From a virus, in IMG/VR virus record IMGVR_UViG_3300033146_001170, positions 1 through 40,519 of that record: 40,519 nucleotides of DNA; one strand, given 5' to 3'. A program made the position numbers and the translations under genes. This document shows, one piece after another, positions 994 through 40,519 of this stretch. The notes beneath the pieces are model-generated. The model searched no databases, had not been told where the DNA came from, and was given only the letters and a program-made list of their open reading frames with translations. The number at the start of each line of letters is the position of its first letter. Position 1 is the stretch's first letter.

Positions 994-2322
994 ATGCCAG
1001 AGATCAAAGTACAAGAATTTTTCAAAACAGAATTTCCTAATTTCGCTGTTTATAATTTGTATCGAATGGTAGGATCTTACGTTGATGGACTTAAACCTTC
1101 ACAACGTAAGATCGTCCATACTGTTATGAAGCGAAATATAACATCACCTAAAAAAGTTTCTCAATTAGCGTCTGATGCTTCTAGTGAAACACAATATCTA
1201 CATGGAGAAATTAATCTCCAAGGTGTTATTGTTAATATGGTGCAAGATTTTGCTGGCACTAATAATATGAATTTGCTTTATCCGGAATCATCATTTGGAA
1301 ATAGATGTTTTCCACAAGCAGCTGCTGCACGGTATATTTACACACGTAAAAATGATATCTTTGATAAGATTTTTCATAAAGAAGATATTGATCTATTACC
1401 TAAACAAGAGTTTGAAGGTGATCCTATTGAGCCGAAATATTTCTTACCAACATTACCATTAATTCTTATAAATGGTTCTGAAGGGATTGGTTCAGGCTGG
1501 GCTCAAAAGATTCTCCCTAGAAATCCAAAAGATGTTAAAAAAGAAATCTTACGATATTTAGAGGGAAAGGAAACTCGTTCAATTAAACCTTGGTTTAATG
1601 GTTTCAAAGGTGAAGTAAGATTTGTTGAAGGAAATACTTGGGAATTATGTGGTGTTTTGGAACAAAAGAATCTAACTACATTTGAAGTTACAGAGCTTCC
1701 TCCTAATGTTTCTTTAGATAAATATACTTCTCAATTAATTAAATTGGAAGATCAAGGTAAAATTGTTTCATTTACTGATTATTCAGATTCGGGTACAAAT
1801 TCGTTTAAATTTGAAATTAAAACTAAAAGAGATTTTTCTAAAAATAAATCGCACGATCAATTGATGAGAGCTCTTTATTTAGTTAAACGGGTGACTGAGA
1901 ATTTTACGTGTATGGATGAGAACAATGAAGTTCGTGAATTCCTTAATGACGTTCAAATCTTACACGATTACTGTGATCTTAGATTAAACTACTACGACAC
2001 TAGGAAGCAGAAGATCATCCACGAGAAGCAGTATTTGGTGGATACATTGACGAATAAACAACGGTTTATTGCTGATATTGTTGAAGAACAGTTAAAAATC
2101 AAAAATCTTAAAAAATCTGAGGTTATTGAATATCTTAAAAAGAATAATTATGACCAACGAGATTCATCATATAATTATCTATTAAATATGCCAATATATA
2201 ATATCTCAAAAGATCAATATCAAAAATTACAACTTGAGATTCAAAATGTTCAAAAAGAATTAAAGGTGATTGAGTCTAAAACGCCAAAAGATATCTGGAA
2301 AGAAGATATGAAAAAGATTTAA
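994..2322 (+). CDS. 52: DNA topoisomerase II medium subunit (gp52-like)
   Basis: The product has 442 residues, essentially the length of T4 gp52. It is the DNA breakage-reunion subunit of the phage type II topoisomerase, equivalent to GyrA/ParC, and relieves supercoils during replication. Near the N-terminus is the conserved DGLKPSQRKI segment (residues 31-40). The winged-helix motif AAARY places the DNA-linking tyrosine at residue 114. LINGSEGIGSGWA (about 158-170) matches the conserved glycine-rich segment of GyrA-type proteins, and the C-terminus is helical and probably coiled-coil. The gene follows the 216 gene closely and is two genes after the gp39-like fragment, so both enzyme halves are encoded together. 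Confidence 0.95.
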   Translation: MPEIKVQEFFKTEFPNFAVYNLYRMVGSYVDGLKPSQRKIVHTVMKRNITSPKKVSQLASDASSETQYLHGEINLQGVIVNMVQDFAGTNNMNLLYPESSFGNRCFPQAAAARYIYTRKNDIFDKIFHKEDIDLLPKQEFEGDPIEPKYFLPTLPLILINGSEGIGSGWAQKILPRNPKDVKKEILRYLEGKETRSIKPWFNGFKGEVRFVEGNTWELCGVLEQKNLTTFEVTELPPNVSLDKYTSQLIKLEDQGKIVSFTDYSDSGTNSFKFEIKTKRDFSKNKSHDQLMRALYLVKRVTENFTCMDENNEVREFLNDVQILHDYCDLRLNYYDTRKQKIIHEKQYLVDTLTNKQRFIADIVEEQLKIKNLKKSEVIEYLKKNNYDQRDSSYNYLLNMPIYNISKDQYQKLQLEIQNVQKELKVIESKTPKDIWKEDMKKI

Positions 2323-3029: not shown

Positions 3030-3338
3030 ATGGTAAGTTGGATTTTAGTAGGTATTCTTGGTGGTGCTGTATATTGGTGTTGGAGTAATCGTAAAAAAGA
3101 TATTCCAGTTGAACCCAAAACAGAATCCGATATTGAACGCGAAATCATATATAAATATAGACAAAAATTAGCACATGAATGTCTTGAAGCTTCTGAGCAT
3201 TTTAGCAGAATCGCTCATTCAGAAAAATTCAAAGCAGAAGATGTGTTTGAATCTTTATATCTATATTTGAATACTGATGAACAAGATCTTAATTATCGTT
3301 CGATTTATTTGAAAATGCTATCTGAATTGGAGGATTAA
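3030..3338 (+). CDS. Small single-span membrane protein
   Basis: The product has 102 residues. Residues 3-18 form one hydrophobic span followed at once by NRKK, suggesting the C-terminal part is cytoplasmic (positive-inside rule). The rest is a charged helical domain (IEREIIYKYRQKLAHECLE). Its last base overlaps the start of the P-loop kinase gene at 3338. AAAAAGG precedes the start. A similar design (one N-terminal span plus about 80 charged residues) recurs in the gene at 3787, so the two may be distant relatives. Function is unknown. Confidence 0.75.
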   Translation: MVSWILVGILGGAVYWCWSNRKKDIPVEPKTESDIEREIIYKYRQKLAHECLEASEHFSRIAHSEKFKAEDVFESLYLYLNTDEQDLNYRSIYLKMLSELED

Positions 3339-3781
3339 TGTCTCAACGACTGTTAATTATTCGAGGATTACCCGGTTCAGGAAAATCCACATTCGCTAAT
3401 AATATAGCATTATCAAATGATATTGTTGTAGAAGCTGATCAATTTCATATGATTGATGGCATTTATCAATATCGTTCTGAACGAGCTGCTTATGCTCATC
3501 AATGGTGTTTATCCGAAACGGCTTATTATTTAAATCAAGGTAATTCAGTCTTTGTTGCTAATACATTCATAACTGCTAGATCGGTTATACCATATTATGA
3601 ATTAGCGAAAGATTTTGATGTTGATTTTGAAATTAAATTTATGACAGAAAATTATGGTTCGGTGCATGATGTTCCAAAAGATGTTTTAGAATCAATGGCA
3701 GAACATATGGAAGATTTTGATACTCAAGATATTATTAATCGATACCAATATTGGAACGAATTAGATCAATGTGAGGAATAA
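3338..3781 (+). CDS. P-loop nucleoside/polynucleotide kinase-like ATPase
   Basis: The product has 147 residues. A Walker A motif lies at the N-terminus (GLPGSGKST, residues 10-18), followed by VEADQF (about 32-37), where an acidic residue is typical of a substrate-binding site. The later FVANTF resembles the Walker B-like strand of the AAA_33 / PNK-type kinase group. The single compact domain matches that family, which includes the 5' kinase half of T4 PseT, but no phosphatase domain is present. The substrate cannot be read from sequence. The start overlaps the previous gene by one base and sits behind TTGGAGG. Confidence 0.75.
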   Translation: MSQRLLIIRGLPGSGKSTFANNIALSNDIVVEADQFHMIDGIYQYRSERAAYAHQWCLSETAYYLNQGNSVFVANTFITARSVIPYYELAKDFDVDFEIKFMTENYGSVHDVPKDVLESMAEHMEDFDTQDIINRYQYWNELDQCEE

Positions 3782-3786
3782 AATTA

Positions 3787-4128
3787 ATGGACGCATTCAT
3801 GCAAATTTCAGGAATTATTTTTTGGTTACTATTATTAATCACCACATTAACTTATTTGATTTGTGTTATATTAGAAAAACTTAATGATCGATCGAATAAA
3901 AATAAAGAAGAACAACAACGTAAATATCGATCAGACCTTGGAAAAGAATTAATTAATACTGCATATTGGTTTTATGGAGCCGAATACGAAAATATTCATC
4001 CTTATGTATTAATGACAGTTATGGGAGAATTGATTCGTGACCCAACTGGACATGTTGATATGCCAACATTACGAAACCGTTGCTTAGAAAAGTCTCAAAA
4101 ATATAAAGAGGAGTATGATAATGATTAA
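3787..4128 (+). CDS. Small single-span membrane protein
   Basis: The product has 113 residues. Residues 9-29 (IIFWLLLLITTLTYLICVILE) form a membrane span, followed by a basic stretch and a soluble helical domain with YWFYGAEYENIHPYV. The 3' end overlaps the cytochrome gene by 8 bases (4121-4128), and its coding sequence supplies that gene's GAGGAG ribosome-binding site, so the two are probably translationally coupled. No family is recognised. Confidence 0.75.
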   Translation: MDAFMQISGIIFWLLLLITTLTYLICVILEKLNDRSNKNKEEQQRKYRSDLGKELINTAYWFYGAEYENIHPYVLMTVMGELIRDPTGHVDMPTLRNRCLEKSQKYKEEYDND

Positions 4129-4456
4129 ATACATTATATTTATTTTATTGCTTACGCTGATGTTCGTATTAGGTGCATCTTATGTTAAAGCAGACGCTGA
4201 TGTTCAATTACAATATCAATATTTGATGAATAATTCAAAAGGATTGGTTGTTTTTAATCATCAAGCTCATGCTGATAATTTAAACGATTGTTTAATTTGT
4301 CATCATAATGGTGAACCAATCAGTTGCTATAAATGTCATACAGATGATACAAAAATCACAGCTAAAAAAGCCTTTCATTTAAATTGTAAAGGTTGTCATA
4401 AAAAGATCAAACAAGGCCCAACAAAATGTTCGGCTTGTCACCAAAAGGGGAAATAA
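4121..4456 (+). CDS. Sec-exported tetraheme class III (c3/c7-type) cytochrome c
   Basis: The product has 111 residues. An N-terminal signal peptide (hydrophobic residues 5-18, likely cleavage after the alanine of KADA, residue 26) targets it to the periplasm. The mature part has four CXXCH heme-attachment motifs at C57, C69, C89 and C103. Candidate distal histidines are H47 and H50 (FNHQAH), H62 (CHH) and H86 (AFH), so all eight axial ligands of a bis-His tetraheme cytochrome c3 are present in the family order. The C-terminal CKGCH...GPTKCSACH closely follows Geobacter PpcA-type c7 proteins, which lack heme II. The family carries electrons in the periplasm of metal- and sulfate-reducing bacteria. 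The ATG at 4121 is chosen over 4115 because GAGGAG (4108-4113) is correctly spaced from it. Confidence 0.93.
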   Translation: MIKYIIFILLLTLMFVLGASYVKADADVQLQYQYLMNNSKGLVVFNHQAHADNLNDCLICHHNGEPISCYKCHTDDTKITAKKAFHLNCKGCHKKIKQGPTKCSACHQKGK

Positions 4457-4457
4457 A

Positions 4458-4712
4458 ATGGGTTATTTACTTTTAGCAATTTCAATGTTCCTTCTCGGAA
4501 TGTTATGTTTTCCACTTGTATTGTTTTTGCGTGCACGTAAAGATGATCATTGGGACAATTCCAATATGACCAACATCATCAGACTGGTCGCTCACATCGC
4601 AACACACCCAGGCGACTTTGGTGAGATGCAATACAAGGACGGTTCCAAACCATTTTGGTATCTCAATAAAGATGAATTCTCAGATGTAGTAAAAACTAGA
4701 CCAAAAGATTAA
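4458..4712 (+). CDS. Conserved small phage membrane protein
   Basis: The product has 84 residues and starts 1 base after the cytochrome stop, with AAAGGGGAA as ribosome-binding site. Residues 3-24 form one span, followed by RARKDD. The C-terminal half (IRLVAHIATHPGDFGEMQY, then FWYLNKDEFSDVVKTRP) looks like a conserved phage module, seen from memory in other marine and enteric phage genomes without a known function. The basic residues after the span suggest that the C-terminal domain is cytoplasmic. Its tight coupling with the cytochrome gene is notable but does not show a shared role. Confidence 0.8.
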   Translation: MGYLLLAISMFLLGMLCFPLVLFLRARKDDHWDNSNMTNIIRLVAHIATHPGDFGEMQYKDGSKPFWYLNKDEFSDVVKTRPKD

Positions 4713-11050: not shown

Positions 11051-11728
11051 ATGAATTTTTCAGAAACAGAACTATCGATTCTTAGCAATTTCGCTAAAAT
11101 CAATCCTTCACAAATTATTAAACCAACTGGTTTTGGAGCGAAAGAACCTTCAGCGAGTATTGTAGGTGTTTACGATTTCGAAGAAGAATATGATTTTGAG
11201 CCATTTGGTATTTATGAAGTCCCAATGTTCCTCCAAGCACTTGAAGCTTTTGATAAACCTAAAATTGAAGTTAAAGCCGATCGTGTTATTATTAAAGAAG
11301 GATCTTCTAAGATTCAATTCTTTACAACTCCACTCGATCTAATCAAAAATTCAGAAGTTCCAAATATCGCTCCAAAATTCGATAAATTAGATTGTGAATT
11401 GGATTTTGATTTGCCTGCTGATAAACTAGCAACAATTTTCAAAACAGCAGCTGTTTTTAAAGCTAAATATTTGTTTCTAGAATCAGATAAAAAAGGTGTT
11501 CGTCTAACAGTTTCATCTGATACACCTGGATCTAGTGCAAACTCTTTTGAAATTATGATTCGTGATAATGTTCGTAATAATGAACTCGATGGAACTGTTT
11601 TGAAAATTCCATTTTCTGAACTTCGTATTATTCCTGGTGATTATACAATTAAAGCGTCTGCTAAAAAGATTTCGAAATGGACTTGTTTTAATGATGTGAT
11701 TTATTATGTTGGATGTATGATCGACTAG
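11051..11728 (+). CDS. 45: DNA polymerase sliding clamp (gp45-like)
   Basis: The product has 225 residues, against 228 in T4 gp45. The protein is the trimeric ring that tethers the DNA polymerase and, in T4, also activates late transcription. The opening MNFSETELSILSNFAKINPSQII is typical of T4-type clamps, and the acidic two-domain beta/alpha pattern continues to the end (CFNDVIYYVGCMID). A CAAAGGAG site and a near-consensus promoter precede it. gp44 and gp62 clamp-loader genes follow directly, as in T4. The T4-type late promoters seen downstream fit a clamp-dependent late transcription system. Confidence 0.93.
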   Translation: MNFSETELSILSNFAKINPSQIIKPTGFGAKEPSASIVGVYDFEEEYDFEPFGIYEVPMFLQALEAFDKPKIEVKADRVIIKEGSSKIQFFTTPLDLIKNSEVPNIAPKFDKLDCELDFDLPADKLATIFKTAAVFKAKYLFLESDKKGVRLTVSSDTPGSSANSFEIMIRDNVRNNELDGTVLKIPFSELRIIPGDYTIKASAKKISKWTCFNDVIYYVGCMID

Positions 11729-11738
11729 GAGATATTAG

Positions 11739-12707
11739 ATGTCAAATAAAGATTCCCTCTGGGTAGAAAAATATCGTCCAAAAACAATTACAGATGTGGT
11801 CTCTCCAGCTTCAACTCAGAAGTTGCTGGAGACCATTGTTGAAACTAAAGAACTCACTAATATTATGTTTTATGGATCAGCAGGTCTAGGTAAAACAGCA
11901 ACTGCTCGATCTATTGTTAATGATCTTGGTGCAGAAGAGTGTTATATTAATGGTTCTTTAGAAACATCTGTTGATGTTATTCGTAATCGTGTTATTCAAT
12001 TCGCTATGACACATTCGGTTGCTGGTATGTTAATGGACGAAAAACCAGCTCCTAAAATTGTTATTATTGACGAATGTGAACGACTTTCACCTCAAGCTCA
12101 AGATTCACTAAAAGTTGTTTTAGAAGAAGCATCTTCAAATTGCCGTTTTATTTTTTGTACAAATAATCTACAAAAGATAATTGATCCACTTCAATCAAGA
12201 TGTAAATTGATATCTTTTAATTATGGAACAGATCAATCAAAAGATATCATGCTCAAATATTTTAAACGTATTTGTTATATTCTTGAACAAGAAGGGCATA
12301 AATTAGATAAAAAAGCAAAAGGGATTGTTGCTGAATTTGTTCAACAATTCTTCCCAGATTTCCGTAAAATGATTAATGAACTCCAAGGGTATCTAATGGA
12401 GAAAGATACAATTGGATTGGATTTATTGCGTGCGGGGGATTCTTCACAAACACATGATATGATCAATCTTATTAAATCAAAACAATTTAATAAAGTAGCG
12501 GCGTTATGTGCTGAGATTGATTCTAATTCATTTTATTCATCATTTTATGCAGAGATTAAGAAATTTATAAAACCTGAGGCAATTCCAGATGTAGTCTTTA
12601 TATTGAGAGATGGGATGCATACACACGCATTAGCAGTAGATCAAGAGATTAATTTGATTGCTGTTTGTGTAGAGCTCATGGCAGCACTTGATGGGAAATG
12701 GAAATAA
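11739..12707 (+). CDS. 44: Clamp loader large subunit, AAA+ ATPase (gp44-like)
   Basis: The product has 322 residues (T4 gp44 has 319). It opens with WVEKYRPKTITDVV, the usual start of RFC/gp44 clamp loaders. Walker A is GSAGLGKT (46-53). Walker B ends in D111-E-C-E (a DExx box). SRC (153-155) carries the arginine finger that senses ATP in the neighbouring subunit. With gp62 it uses ATP to open and load the clamp at primer-template junctions. The gene starts 10 bases after the clamp gene, and gp62 follows in a TAATG overlap, supporting co-translation. Confidence 0.95.
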   Translation: MSNKDSLWVEKYRPKTITDVVSPASTQKLLETIVETKELTNIMFYGSAGLGKTATARSIVNDLGAEECYINGSLETSVDVIRNRVIQFAMTHSVAGMLMDEKPAPKIVIIDECERLSPQAQDSLKVVLEEASSNCRFIFCTNNLQKIIDPLQSRCKLISFNYGTDQSKDIMLKYFKRICYILEQEGHKLDKKAKGIVAEFVQQFFPDFRKMINELQGYLMEKDTIGLDLLRAGDSSQTHDMINLIKSKQFNKVAALCAEIDSNSFYSSFYAEIKKFIKPEAIPDVVFILRDGMHTHALAVDQEINLIAVCVELMAALDGKWK

Positions 12708-13096
12708 TGTCTCAATTATTTGACTACATAAAACGACTCACAAACAAAAAACCGATTGACGAAACCCAAGACTCCTTTGAAAAAGATTATTCTCCATATA
12801 TGATCAATCGGTTTTTTGCTTGTGATCGTAAATTATTAATGCTCGCTAAAGAAATGAATCGTCCTGAATTAACAAAACAAATGCATTTTGATTTTTTAGA
12901 TACGATTGTTCCAAAATCAAATAAATTTATTCGTTATAATATGAAGAAATCAAAAGCAGATAAAGATATTCAATATATTTGTGATTATTATCAAGTGAAT
13001 ATTGAAGTCGCTAAATCATATTATAAAATCTTAAAACGCAATAAAGATCAAATGAAATTTATTAGAGATTTTTATGAGAAAAGGGGAACAAAATGA
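12707..13096 (+). CDS. 62: Clamp loader small subunit (gp62-like)
   Basis: The product has 129 residues from the ATG at 12707, which overlaps the gp44 stop as TAATG. An ATG three codons earlier is possible. It is shorter than T4 gp62 (187 residues). The position directly after gp44 is that of gp62 in T4-like phages, and the features fit: a helical protein with SPYMINRFFACD near the N-terminus, a conserved start of phage gp62 proteins. It forms the non-catalytic arm of the 4:1 gp44/gp62 loader. Sequence similarity is low in this family, so the call leans on synteny and the SPYMINRF motif. Confidence 0.85.
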   Translation: MSQLFDYIKRLTNKKPIDETQDSFEKDYSPYMINRFFACDRKLLMLAKEMNRPELTKQMHFDFLDTIVPKSNKFIRYNMKKSKADKDIQYICDYYQVNIEVAKSYYKILKRNKDQMKFIRDFYEKRGTK

Positions 13097-13287
13097 GTTT
13101 TGATGGGTCATTATTTCCATGTCCATTATGTGAAGGTAAATGTTTTCCTGTTAATGGAAACGATATTGATCCAAGAGCTCAATTAGAATGGATCAAATGT
13201 TTAAATTGTGGTGAATTATGGAGTCCAATGTATGTCAGAGCATTTTGGGCAGGTTATGCTAAAAGGGAGAAAGAAATTAATGAATAA
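13093..13287 (+). CDS. Small zinc-ribbon protein (Lar-like)
   Basis: The product has 64 residues. PCPLCEGK near residue 9 and IKCLNCGE near residue 34 form a four-cysteine zinc ribbon. The pattern and the C-terminal aromatic segment (YVRAFWAGYAKRE) resemble small Lar-type (restriction alleviation-like) zinc proteins of phages, whose function is usually unknown. It overlaps gp62 by 4 bases (ATGA) and the dUTPase gene by 8 bases, so it is translated within this operon. T4 has the regA repressor after gp62; this protein is not RegA. Confidence 0.7.
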   Translation: MSFDGSLFPCPLCEGKCFPVNGNDIDPRAQLEWIKCLNCGELWSPMYVRAFWAGYAKREKEINE

Positions 13288-13804
13288 CGAAAGATTTACT
13301 TTAAATTACAATCTTAATAAAATTTTGGGACCTGGTCAAACCGAATTAATGTTTGCAAAAATTGGGGATGTTAAATCTCCCGTACGTGGAACAAAACATT
13401 CTGCGGGGATTGATTTCTTCGTTCCGAATGACTGGAATTCTGGTGTTCAATATACTATTCGTCCGGGTGATAAAGTAGTCATTCCAATGAAAATTCATAT
13501 TGATTTGTTAGGTTCCTATTTACCCAATTTTATGATGAAATTTGAAAACAAATCAGGGGTTGCTATTAAAAAAGGTTTGGTTGTTGGGGCATGTGTTATT
13601 GATGCTGATTATCAAGGAGAACTAATGGTTCATGTTTATAACGCATCAAACGAACCTACAACTATTTCCCCAGGTGATAAAATTATCCAAGGTATTCTTC
13701 AAGAAATTTTGTATGCTGAACCAACAGAATATACTTTGGATGAACTTTATTGGGAAATTTCAGAAAGAGGCGATGGTAGATTTGGCTCTACTGGAGACAA
13801 ATAA
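13280..13804 (+). CDS. dut: Trimeric dUTPase (dUTP pyrophosphatase)
   Basis: The product has 174 residues from the ATG at 13280, behind AAAGGGAGAAAG. All five dUTPase motifs are visible in order: SAGIDFF (41-47), ENKSGVA (89-95), GACVIDADYQGEL (103-115), PGDKIIQ (131-137) and RGDGRFGSTG (163-172). The acid of VIDADY and the preceding aromatic pocket build the active site; the C-terminal glycine-rich motif 5 closes over the nucleotide. The enzyme converts dUTP to dUMP, which limits uracil in DNA and feeds thymidylate synthesis. It overlaps the genes on both sides. Confidence 0.95.
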   Translation: MNNERFTLNYNLNKILGPGQTELMFAKIGDVKSPVRGTKHSAGIDFFVPNDWNSGVQYTIRPGDKVVIPMKIHIDLLGSYLPNFMMKFENKSGVAIKKGLVVGACVIDADYQGELMVHVYNASNEPTTISPGDKIIQGILQEILYAEPTEYTLDELYWEISERGDGRFGSTGDK

Positions 13805-14535
13805 TGAAAGAAATATATGGTTATGTGGGTGAAATGGGGGCAGGGAAAACTCATTTCGCCTTACAAAAAATCAAAGAATTAAAATCAGATGGTAAAACTG
13901 TTTTAATGATTTCTTGGGCTGACCCGATCAAATCTATTTTAAACAATTATGGTTTATTGAAGTCGGGTCCAATTGATAATCATTTATTTGAAGAATTTAA
14001 AGTAACAAAACCCGAATCATTTATTGCTTATCTGAAAGATTCTATTTTAGAGATTATAGAAAAACTTGGAATTCAATTATATGATTATGATTATCAACGA
14101 TTTGGTTCTGCATTAATGAGGCATACAGATGATCTTAATAAAATTTGCATTAATATTATAAATGGAACTGATTATTTTGAAAATTATCGTAAATTAATGC
14201 AAATTGTAGGAACTGATTTAGGTAGATGTTTATATGATTCTATTTGGATTGATGAAACATTAGGAATTATCAAACAAGCGTTTTATTTAGATATCGCTCA
14301 TGCGGCTATTATTGACGACATCAGATTTCAAAATGAATTTGATTCGTTTCAAGATTTTGGAGAAAAGAATCATTATAAGTGTATAATTTATGGAATTAGA
14401 TCGGATTTAAAAACACGTTCTGATCGAACATGGATAGATACTACTGATCTTAAAAAATTTCAGGAACATGGATCTGAAAAATATATACCAAATCTACTAG
14501 ATAAAATCCCATCTAATCATATAATTCATAATTAA
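13804..14535 (+). CDS. 1: Deoxynucleoside monophosphate kinase (gp1-like)
   Basis: The product has 243 residues (T4 gp1 has 241). The N-terminal P-loop GEMGAGKT (residues 9-16) fits the T4 dNMP kinase, and LMQIVGTDLGRCLYDSIWID with a following IIDDIRFQNE (Walker-B-like Asp-Asp and Arg) matches the family core. The enzyme phosphorylates dTMP, dGMP or modified dCMP to diphosphates during phage DNA synthesis. The ATG shares its A with the dUTPase stop. Grouping with dUTPase and polymerase makes a nucleotide-supply/replication operon. Confidence 0.88.
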   Translation: MKEIYGYVGEMGAGKTHFALQKIKELKSDGKTVLMISWADPIKSILNNYGLLKSGPIDNHLFEEFKVTKPESFIAYLKDSILEIIEKLGIQLYDYDYQRFGSALMRHTDDLNKICINIINGTDYFENYRKLMQIVGTDLGRCLYDSIWIDETLGIIKQAFYLDIAHAAIIDDIRFQNEFDSFQDFGEKNHYKCIIYGIRSDLKTRSDRTWIDTTDLKKFQEHGSEKYIPNLLDKIPSNHIIHN

Positions 14536-14539
14536 AAAA

Positions 14540-14567
14540 TTGACAAATTAAAAAAGTCGTGTATAAT
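14540..14567 (+). promoter_or_regulatory. sigma70 promoter of the DNA polymerase gene
   Basis: TTGACA at 14540-14545, a 16-base spacer and a perfect TATAAT at 14562-14567. Its -10 box overlaps the 5' arm and loop of the hairpin at 14552-14587, so initiation and hairpin formation are physically linked. Confidence 0.75.
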
Positions 14568-14587
14568 TAAATAAATACACGACTTTT
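14552..14587 (+). terminator. 12-bp perfect inverted repeat, terminator or regulatory hairpin before gp43
   Basis: AAAAGTCGTGTA (14552-14563) and TACACGACTTTT (14576-14587) are perfect complements around a 12-base loop. A T-rich stretch follows (CTTTTAATTTTT), which fits an intrinsic terminator for the upstream operon. A promoter overlaps it, and the gp43 ribosome-binding site lies about 13 bases downstream. In T4, gp43 represses its own translation through a hairpin at this place, so a regulatory role is also possible. Confidence 0.65.
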
Positions 14588-14609
14588 CTTTTAATTTTTA
14601 GGAGTTAAA

Positions 14610-17201
14610 ATGGCTAAATCTTTATTATCGATTGAAATGGTTAATAAAAATACAATTTATCACAGATATCTCGAAAATGGGTCAAGACAAGAAGAATATA
14701 TAGAGTTCAAACCTTTCTGTGGAGTTCCATCTAATAAAGAATCGTCAATCAAAACATTATATAATAAACCATTAGAGTTACGTCAATTCGATAACATTTC
14801 TGAATTTAAAAAATGGGTTAAAGAGAATGAAGAATATATAGATATTTATGGTAACATCCGTCCAGAATATATGTTCTTAGCGTCTACATATCCAAAAGAA
14901 ATCCCAATTCAATGGGAAGATATGAGAATCGATAATATTGATATCGAGGTTGTGAGAGAAGATGGATTCCCAGATTCGGATTTAGCTGAATGGCCAGTAA
15001 CAGCTATTACAATACAAGATATCATTAAAAAAACTTATACAACATTTGGTTATAAGAAGAATTATAAAAATAACGATTCAGAAAATATAAATTATATTCA
15101 TTGCGATAATGAAAAAGATTTATTAGAAAAATATGTAATCTATTGTCGTGAAAGAAGAGCGGATATTATTACTGGATGGAATATTGTAAATTTTGATATT
15201 CCATATTTAGTCAATAGGATCATAAAAATTTTAGGAAAGAATTGGGCTAAAAAGATTAGCCCTGTTGGGAAGTTACGTCAAAGAGTATATAAGGATACTT
15301 TCGATAATGAAGTTAGCACCTATGACATCTTAGGTACGGTTATTTACGATTATATGGAACTTTATTCTAAATTTCAAATGGAACCGAGAGACGGAAAATC
15401 GTTAGAAGTTATTGCTCAAGCAGAATTAGGTAAAGGTAAATTAAATTATAAAGAAGGAGATAATCGTTCATTAACCGAATTATATCATAATGATTTTCAA
15501 ACATATATTGATTATAATATTCGAGATACAGAATTGGTTGGTCTAATTGATGATAAACGTCAATATTTAAGATTGGCGATTAATATGACATATATGGCAA
15601 AATGTTTATTCCAAGATATTTTTGGCACTGTTGGAATTTGGGATGCATATCTTTACAATGTTCTTTTAAATAAAAAAATATTATGTTCGCCTCGTAAAAC
15701 CAATATTAAATCTTCATTTCCTGGTGGTTGGGTCGAGAAACCAAGAAAAGGTTTAAATGGATGGAATATGGTTTTTGATATCGCCTCTTCATATCCAAAT
15801 TCAATTATTTCTTATAATATATCAACCGAAACTGTTATAGAATTTAATTCGTTACCTCAAGAATTAAAATCATTAGCAGATTCAATAAGACCTTATTATG
15901 CTGAAGATAAATTTGTTTGGATGATTAACGATAATGTTTATGATGTTAATTGGTTAGAAGAAAATGCTAAACCTTTATTAACAAAATATAACATTTGTAT
16001 GACACCTTGGGGTGAATTCTTTAAACGTGATGAAATCGGATTTATCCCAGAAGTTGTTGATACGATTTTTAAATCTAGGAAAAAAGTTAAACAAAAAATG
16101 AAAAAAATAGATTTTAATTCAAACGAATATGATGCGTTAAATGCTCAACAAATGGCATTTAAAACATTAATGAATTCCCTATATGGCGCAATGAGTAATA
16201 TTTGGTTTAGATATTTTGATATTAGAATGGCTGGTTCGATCACATCAGCAGGTCAAGCATCAGTTAAAGGTTCTGCAAAATATATAAATGATGAAATTAA
16301 AGGATTGAAATCTATTTATACAGATACAGATTCATTATTTGTTGATATGCAACCGATTATAGATCAACGTTTTAAAAATAAAAAACATACATTTATTGAT
16401 GAACACGATTTTTGTATGAAAATGGCAAGACAAGTTGTAGAACCTAAATTAGAAGAATTTTTTGATCGTTTAACAAAAGGATTGAACACTTTCACGAATA
16501 CTTTAGTAATGGAAGCGGAAGTTCTCGCAGATGCATGGATATCAGTTGAGAAAAAGAAATATTCTATGCGGATTATTAATGATGAAGGAGAAGAATTCTT
16601 TAATCGTGAAACTTTAGAATTAGGTAAATGGAATTTTGATAAGACAAAATTCCAACCTGGAAAAGTTAAATTAAAAACAAAAGGATTATCTTTGATTCAA
16701 TCAACAACTCCACAATTTACAAGATCTAAATTAAAACAATCAATTGAATTAATATTTCAACATAGAAATGAACAGATTATTAAAGATAAATTTAAAGAAT
16801 GGAAAGATGAATTTATGACATTACCTTTTGAAGAAGTATCAATGCCAAGAGGTGTCTCAATTTTTAACAAATATGTTGAAAACCCAGCAGGAGCTCAAGC
16901 ACACGTTAGAGCCTCCATGGCTTTCAATAAAGCGTTAATTGATTTAGGATTAGATAAAGATTATCAACCAATCAACCAAGGCGATAAAATTCGTTATGCT
17001 TATATAAAAGTTCCTAATATATTTGGAATTGAAGTTATGGCAATAAAAGACAAGATGCCAGAGCTTATAAATAAGAATATTAAAGTAGATTGGGACATTC
17101 AATGGCAAAAATGTTTTACATCACAATTAGAAAAAATATTTGAAACAATTGGATGGAATATGTCGGAAGATGATGTCTCTTTAGAAGATTTCTTTAGTTA
17201 A
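14610..17201 (+). CDS. 43: Family B DNA polymerase (gp43-like)
   Basis: The product has 863 residues (T4 gp43 has 898). The 3'-5' exonuclease is complete: D111-I-E113 (Exo I), NFD with D196 (Exo II), and Y302...D306 (Exo III). The polymerase domain has motif A D390IASSYP, motif B K518...NSLYG (522-526) and motif C YTDTDS with D572 and D574. The C-terminus ends SLEDFFS, a hydrophobic tail of the kind that docks on the gp45 clamp. AGGAG precedes the start. All catalytic residues are present, and there is no intron or inserted endonuclease. Confidence 0.98.
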   Translation: MAKSLLSIEMVNKNTIYHRYLENGSRQEEYIEFKPFCGVPSNKESSIKTLYNKPLELRQFDNISEFKKWVKENEEYIDIYGNIRPEYMFLASTYPKEIPIQWEDMRIDNIDIEVVREDGFPDSDLAEWPVTAITIQDIIKKTYTTFGYKKNYKNNDSENINYIHCDNEKDLLEKYVIYCRERRADIITGWNIVNFDIPYLVNRIIKILGKNWAKKISPVGKLRQRVYKDTFDNEVSTYDILGTVIYDYMELYSKFQMEPRDGKSLEVIAQAELGKGKLNYKEGDNRSLTELYHNDFQTYIDYNIRDTELVGLIDDKRQYLRLAINMTYMAKCLFQDIFGTVGIWDAYLYNVLLNKKILCSPRKTNIKSSFPGGWVEKPRKGLNGWNMVFDIASSYPNSIISYNISTETVIEFNSLPQELKSLADSIRPYYAEDKFVWMINDNVYDVNWLEENAKPLLTKYNICMTPWGEFFKRDEIGFIPEVVDTIFKSRKKVKQKMKKIDFNSNEYDALNAQQMAFKTLMNSLYGAMSNIWFRYFDIRMAGSITSAGQASVKGSAKYINDEIKGLKSIYTDTDSLFVDMQPIIDQRFKNKKHTFIDEHDFCMKMARQVVEPKLEEFFDRLTKGLNTFTNTLVMEAEVLADAWISVEKKKYSMRIINDEGEEFFNRETLELGKWNFDKTKFQPGKVKLKTKGLSLIQSTTPQFTRSKLKQSIELIFQHRNEQIIKDKFKEWKDEFMTLPFEEVSMPRGVSIFNKYVENPAGAQAHVRASMAFNKALIDLGLDKDYQPINQGDKIRYAYIKVPNIFGIEVMAIKDKMPELINKNIKVDWDIQWQKCFTSQLEKIFETIGWNMSEDDVSLEDFFS

Positions 17202-28988: not shown

Positions 28989-30668
28989 ATGGCAACAAAG
29001 GTTGAATGGGATATACCAGATATTCTTATTGATGTCGATGGTAATGATTCAATTTATTATGAAAATAATAAAAACTTAAAGAAATCAGACGTACAATTAC
29101 CATATACTGAAGAACATTTTAAAGAATTCATAAAGTGTAAAAACGATGTATTCTATTTTGCTGAAAAATATTACCATATCCGTGATTTGGATAAAGGTAT
29201 TTTAAAAATTAAATTACGTGATTATCAGAAAACAATGCTTAAATCTTTTACTGATAACCGTAATACAATTGTGAATGCTACTCGACAATGTGGTAAATCC
29301 ACTTCTTTTGAGATTTTTGTCTGTCATTATATTTTATTCCAAGAACAAAAAGCCGTTGCTATCTTAGCTAACAAAGCAATGTCTGCTATGAATATTCTTC
29401 GTAAAGTTAAAGTAGCATATGAACTTCTACCTAAATGGCTACAATCGGGTGTAAAAACATGGAATAATAATATGATCGAATTAGAGAATGGTTGTACTGT
29501 TCTCGCAGCTGCAACATCATCAAGTGCGGTTAGATCTTATTCGATTAACTGTCTAATTATTGACGAGATGGCATTTATTCCTAATAATATTTGGACTGAA
29601 TTCTTTTCATCTGTTTATCCAACAGTTTCATCATCCAAAACATCAAAAACAATTCTTGTTTCGACACCAAATGGAATGAATCATTTTTATAGATATTGGC
29701 AAGGTGCGACAACTAAAGATCCAAATCTCAGAAACTCATTTAATCCAATATTGGTTCATTGGTCTGAAGTTCCAGGTAGAGATGAAAAATGGTATAAAGA
29801 AACTCTATCAAATATGACCCAAGAAGAATTTAATAGAGAATTTGAAGGTAAATTCTTAGGTTCTGCATTAACATTGATTAATTCTTCAACATTAGAGAAA
29901 TTATCATTTTTGCATGAGAAAAAGGATACCGAATTACATCATTTATTAAATGACCATTCTAGATTCTTAAGAGTTTTTAAGAAGGTGAAAAAAACCCACA
30001 CATATATTATGTCTGTTGATTCTTCTAAATTAACAGAAAATTCATCTGGTGACCCAGTAGCGATTCAGATAATTGATATCACAAGATATCCATTTCAACA
30101 AGTCGCTGTATTTCAAACATATCACGATATGCATTATTTACAAATTCCTGAAATTGCATATACAATTGGTAAATATTATAATTGGGCTTATGCGTTTGTT
30201 GAAAATAATGAAATTGGACAACAGGTTGTTGATTCAATTGCTTATGATTTTGAATATGAGAATGTATTCTTTGAAAAGCCAAATATTGCTGGTTATAGAA
30301 CTACAAAGAAAACAAAACGTTTAGGATGTTCAAACTTAAAAGGTTGGATTGAACGTGGAAAATTAAAAGTAAATGACCCATTTACAATTGAAGAATTAAG
30401 TACATTTATAAAACAAAAAAATGGTTCTTTTGCTGCTGAAGAAGGTTATACAGACGATTTAGTAATGTCATTAATGGGGTGTTTATTTTTTACTACCAGA
30501 TCCGAATTTGATGCTTTTACTGATATGAAACATATGGCGAATGTATTATTTAATGAAGAGAGATTAAAAGAAATTGAAGATGCTGTAGAAGAGGATCTAC
30601 CTGCATTTGGTGTTGTTGATGATCATACAGGAATGGACGATATTAATGACACATCTTGGATGTTCTAA
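28989..30668 (+). CDS. 17: Large terminase subunit, packaging ATPase-nuclease (gp17-like)
   Basis: The product has 559 residues (T4 gp17 has 610). The ATPase has Walker A T98RQCGKST (to 105), Walker B ending in D192-E193, and the coupling motif STPNG (225-229). The RNase H-like nuclease has the acids D344 (SVDSSK), E405 (FVENNE) and D489/D490 (TDDLVMS). The enzyme drives DNA into the prohead at the portal and cuts the concatemer when the head is full. All catalytic residues are present. It is the last gene before the late promoter at 30686. Confidence 0.97.
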   Translation: MATKVEWDIPDILIDVDGNDSIYYENNKNLKKSDVQLPYTEEHFKEFIKCKNDVFYFAEKYYHIRDLDKGILKIKLRDYQKTMLKSFTDNRNTIVNATRQCGKSTSFEIFVCHYILFQEQKAVAILANKAMSAMNILRKVKVAYELLPKWLQSGVKTWNNNMIELENGCTVLAAATSSSAVRSYSINCLIIDEMAFIPNNIWTEFFSSVYPTVSSSKTSKTILVSTPNGMNHFYRYWQGATTKDPNLRNSFNPILVHWSEVPGRDEKWYKETLSNMTQEEFNREFEGKFLGSALTLINSSTLEKLSFLHEKKDTELHHLLNDHSRFLRVFKKVKKTHTYIMSVDSSKLTENSSGDPVAIQIIDITRYPFQQVAVFQTYHDMHYLQIPEIAYTIGKYYNWAYAFVENNEIGQQVVDSIAYDFEYENVFFEKPNIAGYRTTKKTKRLGCSNLKGWIERGKLKVNDPFTIEELSTFIKQKNGSFAAEEGYTDDLVMSLMGCLFFTTRSEFDAFTDMKHMANVLFNEERLKEIEDAVEEDLPAFGVVDDHTGMDDINDTSWMF

Positions 30669-30685
30669 AATAAATAAGTCAATTT

Positions 30686-30693
30686 TATAAATA
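30686..30693 (+). promoter_or_regulatory. T4-type late promoter TATAAATA before gp18
   Basis: An exact TATAAATA lies in the 126-base gap between gp17 and gp18, about 100 bases ahead of the sheath start. It probably gives the abundant sheath and tube transcripts. Confidence 0.8.
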
Positions 30694-30730
30694 ACTATAC
30701 ACGTAAAATTTAACATAATATAAATTAATT

Positions 30731-30754
30731 ATTTGAGGATATTAATGCTCAAAT
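30731..30754 (+). promoter_or_regulatory. Short perfect hairpin in the gp18 leader
   Basis: ATTTGAG (30731-30737) and CTCAAAT (30748-30754) pair over a 10-base loop, in the leader that follows the late promoter. A 32-codon frame (30745-30843) starts within it, but overlaps the gp18 gene. A role in mRNA stability or translation is possible, not shown. Confidence 0.4.
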
Positions 30755-30794
30755 TTGATTTGTATCAACCCATAACTCAATTAGGAGTAATAAG

Positions 30795-32876
30795 ATGGCA
30801 TTTAGTCTTTCCCCTTCAGTTGATGTTCGTGAGTATGATTTAACTTTATCTGTTCCTAATCTACCAAGTTCAAAAACTGGTATGGTTATTCGTTCTGATA
30901 AAGGCGAATCACTCAAGATTCAATCAATTACAAGTGAAAGAGATCTCGTAGCTGCTTTCGGTGAGCCAACAGCGTATAATTATCAAGATTGGTATAACGC
31001 TTGGAACTTCCTTCAGTATGCTAGTTCTCTTTACATGGTACGCGCAATGGATGATGAAGTAGAAAACGCTGGTATTGAAGTAACAGCGAATGGATCCCTT
31101 GTAGACGTAGAACAATTAACCCAAGAAAAACTTTATAATCATGATGCAGCTGAATTAACTTTAGAAACTGAAGTTACACCAGAAGGTATTCGTTTTTATA
31201 ATAAGCAAATTCAATCAGAACAAAATTATGCTGTTGCTATTTGTATGAATGCTGATGATTGGAACGAACCTTTTTCTTCAGAAGGTTCTCATTTACTTCA
31301 TACATTAACTTCAACTGCTGGATTTGATTCAACTGGTGATTCTGGATCTTCTGTTGTAGAATTTTCTGCAAACACAATGATTGTTGGTGATACTTTCCAA
31401 TATGATGGTTCTTCATATACAGTGACTGATGTTGATAATACCGGAAATGAAGTAACAGTTCAACCAGAATTAGTTGATGAAGCAGGCGATCCTCTTACTG
31501 GTGTTATTACATTTACTTCAGATATGGTTCCAGAAGTAAAAGCATATCGTGAATCGGTTTTTTCTTCTGATTTAGTTAATGCTGATGGTACTTTAGTAGA
31601 TTTCGCTAAATTCTTTGAATATCCACCAGAATTTGATAAAGGTGAATTTGTTGTTATTGTATTCGCTAAAGATGATGATGGTAAATATGACAATGTAGAG
31701 CAATTACTTGTTTCTAAGAAAGAAAATGGTCGTGACTCTGAAGGTCGTAACATTTTTGTAAATGAAGTTTTCTTTAAGAAATCAGATTATTTGTATGCTA
31801 GTTATAATCTTGAATATGCTTTTGAAATTAACACATCAGATTCTCCTTTAGTTAAAATTGAAGGAACAACTGTACTTGATGAGAATGATGAACCAAAATG
31901 GTTATATCCACGTAAGAAACAATTCTTATCAGATGGTACAACTTTTGATAAATGGATTTATGATCCAATTGGATATAAACAATCTGATGTAATGGCAGCA
32001 TTTGATGAATTTGCTGATCCTGAGAATTTTGATATTAATTTATTAGTATCTCATCAACTCGATATGAACCGCGCATCAACAATTGCCGCAACTCGTAAAG
32101 ATTGTTTAGCGATTGTTGCTCCATATGATTATGCTTCAATTGTTGGTAAATCAGCAACAGATGCTACAGAATGGATGATCGCTGAATTTGGTTCACAAAC
32201 TTCACCAGTCGCTGGTACTTTTAATACATTTAATTCATATTCTGCAATTTATGGTAATATGAAATATCAATATGATAAATTCAATGATGTAAATCGTTGG
32301 TTATGTATTGCTGGCGATATTGCTGGTTTAGCTGCACAAACTGATGCTAATCGCGATCCATGGTGGGCATTTGCGGGTCTTGAGCGTGGTAAGATTCGGA
32401 ACTCAATTAAACCAGCATTTAACCCTAATAAACAAAATCGTGATGACCTTTATATTAACAGCATTAACCCAGTTATGTCTGTTCCAGGTGAAGGTGTAAT
32501 GATTGTTTGGGGTCAAAAAACTTCATTAGCTAAACCTTCAGCGTTTGATCGTGTTAATGTTCGTCGTTTATTAATTACTTTAGAAAAAGCGATCGCAACA
32601 GCATCACGTTATGCGTTATTTGAGTTTAATGATGAATTTACACGTGCAAGACTTCGTGGTTTAATTGAACCGTTCTTGCGTGATGTAAAAGGTCGTCGTG
32701 GCATTTATGATTTCTTAGTTGTTATTGATTCATCAAATAATACAGCTGAAGTTATTGATAAAAATGCTTTAATTATTGATGTTTATATTAAACCTACGAA
32801 GGTTGCTGAATTTATTCAGATCAATATGAACGTAACACGTACTGATGCTAACTTCCAAGAGCTAATTGGACGTTAA
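30795..32876 (+). CDS. 18: Contractile tail sheath protein (gp18-like)
   Basis: The product has 693 residues (T4 gp18 has 659). The N-terminal part (SLSPSVDVREYDLTLSVPN) and the conserved SVYxVR-like SLYMVRA segment, and the C-terminal core (GVMIVWGQKTSLAKPSAFDRVNVRRLLITLEKAIATA, then IDVYIKP) are typical of T4-type sheath proteins. Sheath subunits stack around the tube and contract during injection. The gene has its own late promoter and AGGAG site. The stop is followed by a hairpin before the tube gene. Confidence 0.97.
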   Translation: MAFSLSPSVDVREYDLTLSVPNLPSSKTGMVIRSDKGESLKIQSITSERDLVAAFGEPTAYNYQDWYNAWNFLQYASSLYMVRAMDDEVENAGIEVTANGSLVDVEQLTQEKLYNHDAAELTLETEVTPEGIRFYNKQIQSEQNYAVAICMNADDWNEPFSSEGSHLLHTLTSTAGFDSTGDSGSSVVEFSANTMIVGDTFQYDGSSYTVTDVDNTGNEVTVQPELVDEAGDPLTGVITFTSDMVPEVKAYRESVFSSDLVNADGTLVDFAKFFEYPPEFDKGEFVVIVFAKDDDGKYDNVEQLLVSKKENGRDSEGRNIFVNEVFFKKSDYLYASYNLEYAFEINTSDSPLVKIEGTTVLDENDEPKWLYPRKKQFLSDGTTFDKWIYDPIGYKQSDVMAAFDEFADPENFDINLLVSHQLDMNRASTIAATRKDCLAIVAPYDYASIVGKSATDATEWMIAEFGSQTSPVAGTFNTFNSYSAIYGNMKYQYDKFNDVNRWLCIAGDIAGLAAQTDANRDPWWAFAGLERGKIRNSIKPAFNPNKQNRDDLYINSINPVMSVPGEGVMIVWGQKTSLAKPSAFDRVNVRRLLITLEKAIATASRYALFEFNDEFTRARLRGLIEPFLRDVKGRRGIYDFLVVIDSSNNTAEVIDKNALIIDVYIKPTKVAEFIQINMNVTRTDANFQELIGR

Positions 32877-32886
32877 AAAAATTATA

Positions 32887-32911
32887 TTGAGGGGTTGTAA
32901 AAGCCCCTCAA
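32887..32911 (+). other. Hairpin between sheath and tube genes, without T tail
   Basis: TTGAGGGG (32887-32894) pairs with CCCCTCAA (32904-32911) around a short loop; wobble pairs may extend the stem. AAATATAGGAG follows instead of a T run, so it is not a canonical terminator. It may be a processing or stability element, or a leaky terminator, that tunes the sheath to tube ratio. Confidence 0.6.
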
Positions 32912-32928
32912 ATATAGGAGAATAAATT

Positions 32929-33435
32929 ATGGGAATCGCATTAACAGATTTTAAAGCTAAAGTTCAAGACGTAGCTCGTACTAATCGTTTCTTGTTTACT
33001 TTTGCTTCCCCAGTTAGTGGCGGAGATTCAGAAACTATGTCTTATCTTTGTAAAGGCGCTCAATTACCTTCAAAGACAATCGGTGAGATTATTCTGAATT
33101 GGCAAGGTATGCAAAATAAAATTGCGGGCGATCCAACATTTGATGATCTTTCATTAACTTTTATTAACGATTATGATCAAGTTGGACGTAAAACATTTGA
33201 AGATTGGATGAAATATATTGACGATCAAACTTCAAATGAAAGAGAAGCACAAGGTGATTATAAGATTGATTGTACTGTTCAATTACTTGGTCGTAAAGGT
33301 GAAGTTATTGCAGAATTTAAAATGTTTGGTGTTTGGCCAAAACAATTAGATGCTGTTGATCTTAACTCAGAATCTTCAGATACTATGTCTGAATTTGGTG
33401 TAACTCTTGGTATGGATTATTGGGAACGTATTTGA
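32929..33435 (+). CDS. 19: Tail tube protein (gp19-like)
   Basis: The product has 168 residues (T4 gp19 has 163). The pattern LTDFKAKVQDVARTNRFLFTF, then LCKGAQLPSKTIGEI, and SLTFINDYDQVGRKTFEDWMK is characteristic of T4-type tube proteins. Hexamers stack to form the tube through which DNA passes. It follows the hairpin and ATAGGAG. A strong terminator is downstream at 33470. A second protein of similar type is encoded at 36518. Confidence 0.95.
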   Translation: MGIALTDFKAKVQDVARTNRFLFTFASPVSGGDSETMSYLCKGAQLPSKTIGEIILNWQGMQNKIAGDPTFDDLSLTFINDYDQVGRKTFEDWMKYIDDQTSNEREAQGDYKIDCTVQLLGRKGEVIAEFKMFGVWPKQLDAVDLNSESSDTMSEFGVTLGMDYWERI

Positions 33436-33469
33436 TATCTTACTAATATATAAAATATTACTTTATTTT

Positions 33470-33498
33470 AAGGGACGTTTTTTAACGTCCCTTTTTTT
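33470..33498 (+). terminator. Strong intrinsic terminator after gp19
   Basis: AAGGGACGTT (33470-33479) and AACGTCCCTT (33484-33493) form a 10-bp stem with a TTTT loop, followed by a T run to 33498. A late promoter lies 14 bases downstream. Confidence 0.92.
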
Positions 33499-33512
33499 AT
33501 CTTTATGAGAAA

Positions 33513-33520
33513 TATAAATA
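33513..33520 (+). promoter_or_regulatory. T4-type late promoter TATAAATA before the exported-protein module
   Basis: An exact TATAAATA directly after the gp19 terminator, 32 bases ahead of the ATG at 33553. It lies in the extended reading frame that would start at 33505, which supports the later start. Confidence 0.78.
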
Positions 33521-33552
33521 CATATAATATTAATTTTATATGGTCTATAATA

Positions 33553-34581
33553 ATGAAAAAATTCATATTAATACTTATATTCTGTTTATTATCTGTTCAA
33601 ACAGTTGCTGCAGAATATATACATATTGTTATTTTATTCGATAAATCTTATGAAAATGAAACTGGTGAGATTTTAAGTAAAGAATTAAATACATATATGA
33701 ATGAGAAAGATTATAAAATCTCTCGTATTTATATGAACTGTAATTCCAAATGTACTGAAAATACAATGTCAATTCGTTTCGAAAAAGCATTACGAAGAGC
33801 AGAAGACCGTAATCCAGATTATTTAATTATTGGTTCCGAAACTTTGTGGAATTTATATCATGATGATATAAAAGAATTTAGAGATAAACTTAAAATTAAA
33901 GTTGGTCTATTTAATATGTTTAAAGATTCTGAACGATTCCAATTTGATTTTGATTTTAAATATGATGGTTTTTTTGTTGATTATACAACTGTCGATTTAA
34001 CTACGTTTATGTTTTATACGAAACGAAATGGAATTGTATTTAATCATTTTTATATTTTAAGAGATGAATCAGCACATTCACTTAAATTGGCTTTATATTT
34101 AAAACAAATGTTTTTATTAGAAGGAAAACAACCTGCAAATATTCATATATATCCTGTTTCGTCTATACAATCTTTAAAAAAACGAGTAATGGATTTACAA
34201 ATGAAGCCACAAGGAATTTTAATTCCTATAATTAAACAAGTTTTAGATACAGATTCTAAAAAAGAAATATTAGAAACAATCGTTCATCATAACAGAAAAC
34301 ATTTTGAATTAAGTGTTTTAGAAGATGATACAAAATATTTGTGTTTTAGTTTAGCTCATGTTGTGAGAGATGATTATAAAACATATAAAAAATATCCACA
34401 GCATACTCCTGAAGTAGATGAAATTAATTTATCAGAATTTTTAACTCGATATGAAGGTAAGAAAAATAAATTTGTAGTTGAAGATACATATTTTATAATG
34501 AATGAAGACCGTGTTGGTCAAATTGCTGGAGGGTATAAATTATTAAAATTTAAGAACGATTTTGTGGATTTTTTAAGGTAA
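33553..34581 (+). CDS. Sec-exported protein, possibly periplasmic-binding-like
   Basis: The product has 342 residues from the ATG at 33553. A clear signal peptide (MKKFILILIFCLLSVQTVAAEY) with Lys residues, a hydrophobic core and AxA-type end gives a periplasmic protein, about 320 residues when mature. The alternating strand/helix pattern (YIHIVILFDKSYE, then PDYLIIGSETL, then KIKVGLFNMF) and a second lobe (NHFYILRDESAHSLKLALYLK) resemble type I periplasmic-binding or ABC_sub_bind proteins, but I claim no firm match. No visible Shine-Dalgarno site precedes it. It lies between gp19 and the portal in a late operon, an unusual place for an exported protein. Confidence 0.75.
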   Translation: MKKFILILIFCLLSVQTVAAEYIHIVILFDKSYENETGEILSKELNTYMNEKDYKISRIYMNCNSKCTENTMSIRFEKALRRAEDRNPDYLIIGSETLWNLYHDDIKEFRDKLKIKVGLFNMFKDSERFQFDFDFKYDGFFVDYTTVDLTTFMFYTKRNGIVFNHFYILRDESAHSLKLALYLKQMFLLEGKQPANIHIYPVSSIQSLKKRVMDLQMKPQGILIPIIKQVLDTDSKKEILETIVHHNRKHFELSVLEDDTKYLCFSLAHVVRDDYKTYKKYPQHTPEVDEINLSEFLTRYEGKKNKFVVEDTYFIMNEDRVGQIAGGYKLLKFKNDFVDFLR

Positions 34582-34585
34582 TAAA

Positions 34586-34951
34586 ATGAGCATTCAAGAT
34601 ATTATTAATAAAGTCTACGAAAAATTGGCGTATCATGTTATTTACACCATAAATGAAGATGGAGTGATCGTTAAAGAAGTAAAGAATGATAAATTCGATA
34701 AAGGTAGAACAAGTACAGTTATTTTATCTTTATTATTGAGTTTTTTGTTTGTATTTGTGGTTGGATTAACCGCACACGAACTCAAACATTTATCTCAAGA
34801 AAAATTATTTCAAGAATCGTTTTATGTAAATCAATTATGTTTTAAAGGTGAAGAATTAAGCGAATGTTATAGTATTTCTCACCAAAAAGAAATAAAAATA
34901 TATTTAGATGAACGTGAGGATATTAAAACTCTGTTCATTTCAGGAGAATAA
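34586..34951 (+). CDS. Single-span membrane protein
   Basis: The product has 121 residues. The N-terminal 48 residues (YHVIYTINEDGVIVKEVKN) are polar; one strong span lies at about residues 48-68 (ILSLLLSFLFVFVVGLTA), then a second soluble segment containing three cysteines (QLCFKGEELSEC). Charge distribution suggests N-in, C-out, with a possible disulfide outside. It starts 4 bases after the exported protein gene and may form a complex with it. Function is unknown. Confidence 0.75.
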   Translation: MSIQDIINKVYEKLAYHVIYTINEDGVIVKEVKNDKFDKGRTSTVILSLLLSFLFVFVVGLTAHELKHLSQEKLFQESFYVNQLCFKGEELSECYSISHQKEIKIYLDEREDIKTLFISGE

Positions 34952-34952
34952 T

Positions 34953-35597
34953 GTGGTTTTAGAAATTTTAATGAATTTATCTACCTCTGCATATTTTGCA
35001 TTAGGGGCTGTTTTAGTTACAGCGATTGTATTCGTTTTAATTATTACACCGTTAATGAATCATGTGAAGCAATTAGATGATGTTGTAATGGAAAAATTAT
35101 CGTTGTTACCCACAACAGATACTTATTCCACATTATTCTCAATTATCACTGATCAAAATGTATTTAATGAAGGTTTATTAAAAGAATATGAATTAATCAA
35201 AGATGCAGTTGTCCGTTTAAATGCAATAATTGCTGGGATGAATGGGGATCAGGAATTATTACAAGAAAATATAAATTTGTTCGTTGAACAAATGCGTAAT
35301 CTCGAAATGTCTTTAGAAGATTATGCTGCACATTTAGAATTCAATGATGATAAATCATCAAGACAAATAAATAGTTTAGTAAAAGCTCGTATAGACACAA
35401 CTACATTTTTAATTAAATTAATAGAGTCGTTAAAAGCATCACAACATATTGATCCAAATTTTAATGGTGATACATTATATGAAATTCGAGAAGAATTACG
35501 TGTGGGTGTTGAAACAATTAAAAACATGAACTATCGTTCACTCAAATCAAACCCACGTTCAGGCTCTGTAGATAAATTAACAGATTTTGAATATTAA
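34953..35597 (+). CDS. Membrane-anchored helical protein (GTG start)
   Basis: The product has 214 residues from GTG at 34953, well placed behind CAGGAG (34941-34946). An upstream ATG at 34908 lies inside the previous gene. An N-terminal span (about residues 11-31, AYFALGAVLVTAIVFVLIITPL) leads to a long, mostly alpha-helical domain (LKEYELIKDAVVRLNAIIAGM, then FVEQMRNLEMSLEDYAAHLEF). The layout resembles a membrane-bound sensor or scaffold with a cytoplasmic coiled coil, but no HAMP or kinase motif is present. It belongs to the same late operon as the exported protein. Confidence 0.7.
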   Translation: MVLEILMNLSTSAYFALGAVLVTAIVFVLIITPLMNHVKQLDDVVMEKLSLLPTTDTYSTLFSIITDQNVFNEGLLKEYELIKDAVVRLNAIIAGMNGDQELLQENINLFVEQMRNLEMSLEDYAAHLEFNDDKSSRQINSLVKARIDTTTFLIKLIESLKASQHIDPNFNGDTLYEIREELRVGVETIKNMNYRSLKSNPRSGSVDKLTDFEY

Positions 35598-35608
35598 GGA
35601 ATTAAGCC

Positions 35609-36508: not shown

Positions 36509-36517
36509 GATTTATTT

Positions 36518-37477: not shown

Positions 37478-37483
37478 TTGTAT

Positions 37484-37491
37484 TATAAATA
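37484..37491 (+). promoter_or_regulatory. T4-type late promoter TATAAATA before the portal block
   Basis: An exact TATAAATA lies in the 29-base gap between gp4 and the gene at 37507, 16 bases before the ATG. It gives an extra start for the following gene and the portal. Confidence 0.75.
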
Positions 37492-37506
37492 ACAATAGGA
37501 TACAAA

Positions 37507-37959: not shown

Positions 37960-37968
37960 GGAAGATAA

Positions 37969-39798: not shown

Positions 39799-39952
39799 GT
39801 TATGCCTAAAACATTTAAAGAACTTTCATTAGAAAAAGATCTAAAATCTAAAAATCTAAGTGATTTTGATATCATTAAAAATGATGCTCCAAAATCATTA
39901 TTAGATGTTGAAGATCTTACTGATTTCAATCTTATTATCCGTAAAGAAGAAC

Positions 39953-40507: not shown

Positions 40508-40519
40508 GGCGATCGTGGT

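Follow-up and report, generated by a model that had tools for sequence, protein, structure and literature searches.

A phage contig from a metagenome carries a genuine and intact gene for a class III tetraheme c-type cytochrome, as judged from its motifs and profile matches; loading of the product with heme is predicted. The window, by which we mean the whole stretch of DNA analysed, is a 40,519-base virus record (IMGVR_UViG_3300033146_001170) of 30% GC with no tRNA genes; on its gene content it reads clearly as part of a T4-like myovirus. The account favored here, which we consider probable, is that the phage acquired the gene and that its product would act as an exported, host-matured periplasmic electron carrier, supplementing the respiratory cytochromes of the host. 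The observations behind it are the intact gene with its heme-binding and ligand motifs, its location among phage genes, its conservation in another phage and the fold match.

In the encoded protein, residues ~1-26 are a putative signal peptide or membrane segment, and a heme domain of about 86 aa follows. Translation bears out the four CXXCH motifs (C57, C69, C89 and C103) and the full eight-ligand set of the preliminary description. The proximal histidines are H61, H73, H93 and H107; the remaining histidines, H47, H50, H62 and H86, provide one for each second axial position, and by the order in Desulfovibrio vulgaris c3 (H22, H25, H35, H70) we assign them as putative distal ligands to hemes I, III, II and IV, in that order. 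When the residues were shuffled 200,000 times, no shuffled version contained three or more CXXCH motifs, and the four motifs and four distal histidines are invariant across 35 aligned proteins. The class III assignment made earlier stands: the protein matches PF02085 with an E value of 3.6e-10 and 40.5 bits, above the curated cut-off of 22.9, and the copy in the second phage scores 44.2 bits. The ribosome-binding site claimed for the gene was likewise found, 7 nt before the ATG at 4121 (Table 1); this start is well spaced, as opposed to an alternative ATG at 4115 with almost zero spacing to AGAGGAG, and it overlaps the 3' end of the upstream gene, w6. The N-terminus looks export-like, as had been proposed, being hydrophobic with VKA and ADA cleavage-like sites (judged by eye only).

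Table 1. Features of the window discussed in the text
Feature	Position	Strand	Remarks
Phage DNA topoisomerase II subunit	994..2322	+	upstream hallmark; phrog_551
w5, polynucleotide-kinase-like ATPase	3338..3781	+	left border of slot in four of four phage contigs
w6, small membrane protein upstream of cytochrome	3787..4128	+	homologs in L002 and L070; absent from L003/L069
Shine-Dalgarno-like AGAGGAG	4107..4113	+	7 nt 5' of ATG; read from sequence
Tetraheme class III (c3-type) cytochrome gene	4121..4456	+	111 aa; Pfam, motifs, alignment, fold
w8, small membrane protein downstream of cytochrome	4458..4712	+	phrog_28633
w9, conserved phage protein	4716..5084	+	fixed right border of variable slot
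T4-type replication block: sliding clamp, clamp loader, dNMP kinase, family B DNA polymerase	11051..17201	+	
Virion hallmarks: terminase large subunit, tail sheath, tail tube, portal	28989..39798	+	

The fold can be approached through a heme-free AlphaFold model of the mature domain, made with the 35-sequence alignment (pLDDT 87); it supersedes a full-length model made with 11 sequences, which was poor (pLDDT 70). Its best Foldseek matches in the PDB are the PpcB-E/PpcA c7 proteins and the acidic cytochrome c3 of Desulfovibrio africanus. The TM scores, all from the heme-free model, are 0.72 to acidic c3 3cao (query-normalised), 0.69 to 3h33 and 0.82 to PpcC (target-normalised), and point to a c3/c7 fold; on ligand geometry, which the preliminary description wished to see confirmed, this comparison bears only indirectly. 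Among PDB entries, the closest solved relatives are a nine-heme cytochrome c and PpcA. The preliminary description had observed that PpcA-type c7 lacks heme II, the second motif being present here; the alignment agrees, and the PDB matches concur.

The gene is embedded among phage membrane-protein genes, as originally described: w6 and w8 flank it, and T4-like hallmarks lie on both sides. The family B polymerase is only ~30-33% identical to polymerases of known T4-like phages; the window therefore represents a divergent T4-like group. No partner electron-transfer or cytochrome maturation genes were seen within the window, and no PHROG family matched the cytochrome well. Several other genes of the contig deserve mention in their own right. 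An alpha/beta-hydrolase-like protein (5145-5690; UPF0227, 5.6e-10) is kept in two related contigs. A 358-aa protein with a signal-like N-terminus (33505-34581) looks, on visual inspection, like a periplasmic substrate-binding protein; its PHROG match is weak and its one Pfam hit (ICAM_N) implausible. Its gene sits between tail tube and portal, with two membrane proteins after it (34586-35597). A collagen-like GXY repeat protein (39905-40519; Pfam Collagen, 2.5e-31) runs off the contig end and is probably a fibre or head decoration. The nucleotidyltransferase-like gene at 19070-19633 matches two places ~0.9 kb apart in contig L069 (17359-18980), which suggests a partial duplication or insertion.

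Three related contigs, all from IMG/VR metagenome 3300033146, show the cytochrome region in different states. The order in the window is w5, w6, cytochrome, w8, w9; in _001603 (L002/L068) it is w5, w6, cytochrome, two different genes, w9; in _000616 (L003/L069), w5, one different gene, w9; and in _001310 (L070), w5, w6, w8, w9. The last two thus lack the gene at this place, and a whole-record profile search found no class III cytochrome elsewhere in either record, both of which may be fragments. The cytochrome is therefore a cargo of one gene, carried in a slot whose content varies between fixed borders. The window polymerase is 85% identical to that of _001603, 81% to that of _000616 and 68% to that of _001310; on these values, the simplest history is that the gene was gained once, in an ancestor shared by the window phage and _001603. 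The preliminary description had looked to other assemblies for phage-type flanking genes, which are there, and to close phage relatives for a conserved CXXCH pattern: the pattern is kept in L002, the one relative carrying the gene, and the gene itself is missing from the other two. The candidate role of w6 as an obligate partner of the cytochrome was rejected, because L070 carries w6 and no cytochrome; in that contig w8 lies directly beside w6. A Bohxovirus record contains a relative of w8 too. Two further observations concern the slot and its contents. Related proteins of 189 and 214 aa (L002 14209-14775, with no Pfam match, and L003 8007-8651) share the cytochrome-region slot. In the L002 cytochrome a lipobox-like stretch (VIGASC; L002 13893-13960) includes a Cys at the position of a Tyr in the window protein; one phage cytochrome may be a lipoprotein, the other soluble or N-anchored.

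What the protein might do can be put as a sequence of steps, and the part in electron flow that the preliminary description suggested for it is a plausible one. A lineage of T4-like myoviruses would have acquired the gene from a bacterium and kept it; the protein would be made within a run of same-strand phage genes; the apoprotein would be exported by Sec, and the cytochrome c maturation machinery of the host would attach its four bis-histidine hemes. In the periplasm it could then serve as a small low-potential electron shuttle, PpcA- or TmcA-like, linking quinol oxidoreductases or hydrogenases of the inner membrane to terminal reductases. Electron flow through it would keep respiration and the supply of ATP going while host cytochromes turn over in infection. 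Export, heme loading, periplasmic electron transfer, the partners, expression, the benefit to the phage and the identity of the host are in this scheme what we infer.

A different perspective supposes that the cytochrome, once synthesised and supplied with heme, does not sustain respiration and has an envelope or protective role, as a heme and electron sink, an oxidant or metal scavenger, or a membrane protein excluding superinfection. The location gives this some appeal: the gene sits among small membrane-protein genes without assigned function, in a variable slot, and variable slots often house morons that act on the envelope; moreover, the L002 copy, with its Cys in IGASC, might be membrane-tethered. 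It seems unlikely nonetheless, as all four heme sites and both ligand sets are kept, as inter-heme electron transfer would lead one to expect, and all close database-named relatives are electron carriers.

Comparison of the two phage copies bears on whether the gene is under selection at all. The proteins are 47% identical and their genes occupy the same slot. All 16 heme-attachment and ligand Cys and His residues are identical in both phages, whereas of the remaining 93 aligned positions only 35 are (Fisher p 1.2e-6); the NG86 estimates are dN 0.44 and dS 1.6, rough values with dS near saturation. Reading frame, ribosome-binding site and signal sequence are intact in both copies. That the cytochrome is a passenger captured from a host and drifting in the slot without selected function would fit its lack in two of the four related contigs, but is quite improbable, given that the heme residues persist while most other positions differ between the two phages, with frame and signals intact in each.

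GC and GC3 of the cytochrome gene match those of the phage, so that it is no recent capture; GC3 is ~0.20 in both cytochrome genes, which are thus well adapted to phage composition. A chimeric contig, or bacterial contamination of the virus bin, might be suspected for a small gene with close bacterial homologs in metagenome-derived records, but can be set aside with near certainty: in an independent contig the corresponding slot, with identical borders, contains another allele, and two others show the slot without it, which makes the gene cargo; its composition is that of the phage; and relatives of w6 numbered zero in 136 Desulfuromonadales genomes (a search without positive control).

The cellular relatives of the phage cytochromes are found among anaerobes; outside this phage setting, cytochromes of the kind are known from bacteria that respire metals and sulfur. 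A genome scan with the cytochrome gave 61 loci, mainly in Desulfuromonadales, Geobacteraceae, Syntrophaceae and other ‘deltaproteobacteria’, with the small four-heme form in nine of the loci inspected. A search of 136 Desulfuromonadales genomes, from the order to which a Desulfuromusa genome belongs, gave matches at E <= 1e-15 in 56 of them, frequently at least two in one genome. On sequence likeness, the closest cellular family is that of ~105-aa Desulfuromonadales tetraheme cytochromes (e.g. L087, L102, L008); resB, a c-type maturation gene, adjoins the cellular cytochrome gene in L007 and L012. In the tree a 98/92 branch splits the phage and cellular tetraheme proteins from triheme c7, and the two phage proteins are sisters, weakly supported (70/87). 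This pairing favors a single acquisition; two separate acquisitions are possible, because the pairing is weak and some cellular proteins are up to 51% identical to the window protein in the core, as against 47% for the other phage copy. The most likely donor would be a Desulfuromonadales-like anaerobe. The host is probably a cytochrome-rich anaerobe, since the protein could be matured and put to use in no other kind of host, and from the cytochrome alone Desulfuromonadales are the best guess. Host linking by DNA similarity gave chance-like short matches across the 136 genomes, save two inside the cytochrome gene itself. The low GC of the phage (30%) counts against the proposed reading, as do the two related contigs without the gene and the lack of partner or maturation genes in the window.

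The expectation that a phage cytochrome of this class would be very rare is borne out. Four alignment-based profile scans of IMG/VR (2.9 million viral contigs) recovered only _001603 besides the window; such scans need short stretches of conserved sequence, and divergent relatives may escape them. A single-sequence scan of IMG/VR found nothing, and a fixed-gap DNA pattern gave 14 loci there with no multiheme protein among them. With tblastn, neither P0001 nor the cellular relative L087 had a match among GenBank phages, and P0002 had only two, at chance level; phages and plasmids searched with both phage cytochromes and a cellular relative yielded no true match. No viral structure in BFVD matched the cytochrome model. 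In the open-access full-text literature searched, no phage class III cytochrome was found, and metagenome number 3300033146 turned up in none of the papers; phage heme-synthesis genes have been reported, in the form of a viral 5-ALA synthase (PMC11480375). The protein family itself is known; for its viral context we found no precedent in the collections and literature searched.

A wider implication is put forward tentatively: lytic T4-like phages whose hosts are anaerobes, perhaps reducers of metals or sulfur, might bring a periplasmic multiheme cytochrome of their own and with it sustain or redirect electron transfer in the infected cell, be it respiratory or extracellular. Photosynthesis provides the well-known cases of phage genes that support the energy metabolism of the host. 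If the suggestion is right, viruses would have a hand in anaerobic respiration, in parallel to the photosynthesis genes of cyanophages, and a phage multiheme c-type cytochrome would extend the idea to that mode of growth, perhaps including electron transfer onto minerals or partners. Because the gene is small and its motifs predict four bis-histidine hemes, the cytochrome claim is directly testable.

Set beside known systems, the phage protein is most like the ~105-aa Desulfuromonadales family, with which it shares size, a putative signal peptide, all eight ligands and the motif order FxHxxH-CxxCHH-CxxCH-HxxCxxCH-GPTxCxxCH; it differs in being phage-encoded, in AT-rich coding and in a core identity of at most about 51%. 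With Geobacter PpcA-E c7 it shares the fold (TM 0.63-0.69, query-normalised, for most entries) and the C-terminal GPTKCxxCH, and, to judge from its sequence, would resemble them as small periplasmic carriers; those proteins have three hemes and no heme II, whereas the phage protein has the heme II motif, and it scores 47.9 bits against NF043011 (PpcA-type c7), below the cut-off of 120. The TmcA or acidic (type II) c3 of Desulfovibrio (3cao) appears similar in its four hemes, bis-histidine ligands and modelled fold (TM 0.72). TmcA NF045722 is the best NCBIfam match, at 58 bits (66.1 for the L002 copy) against an equivalog cut-off of 114; the phage protein differs in having shorter loops and no Tmc complex genes nearby. 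Among phage genes, the cytochrome gene lies between hallmarks and recurs in a related phage, as expected of an auxiliary metabolic gene; cyanophage plastocyanin and ferredoxin are auxiliary metabolic genes for electron carriers. It has in common with these carriers, and with the viral 5-ALA synthase (PMC11480375), that it is host-derived redox or heme-related cargo of T4-like and other phages. Those examples are soluble carriers of photosynthesis or pigment and heme enzymes, whereas the protein described here is a multiheme c-type cytochrome of anaerobic respiration, predicted to be exported.
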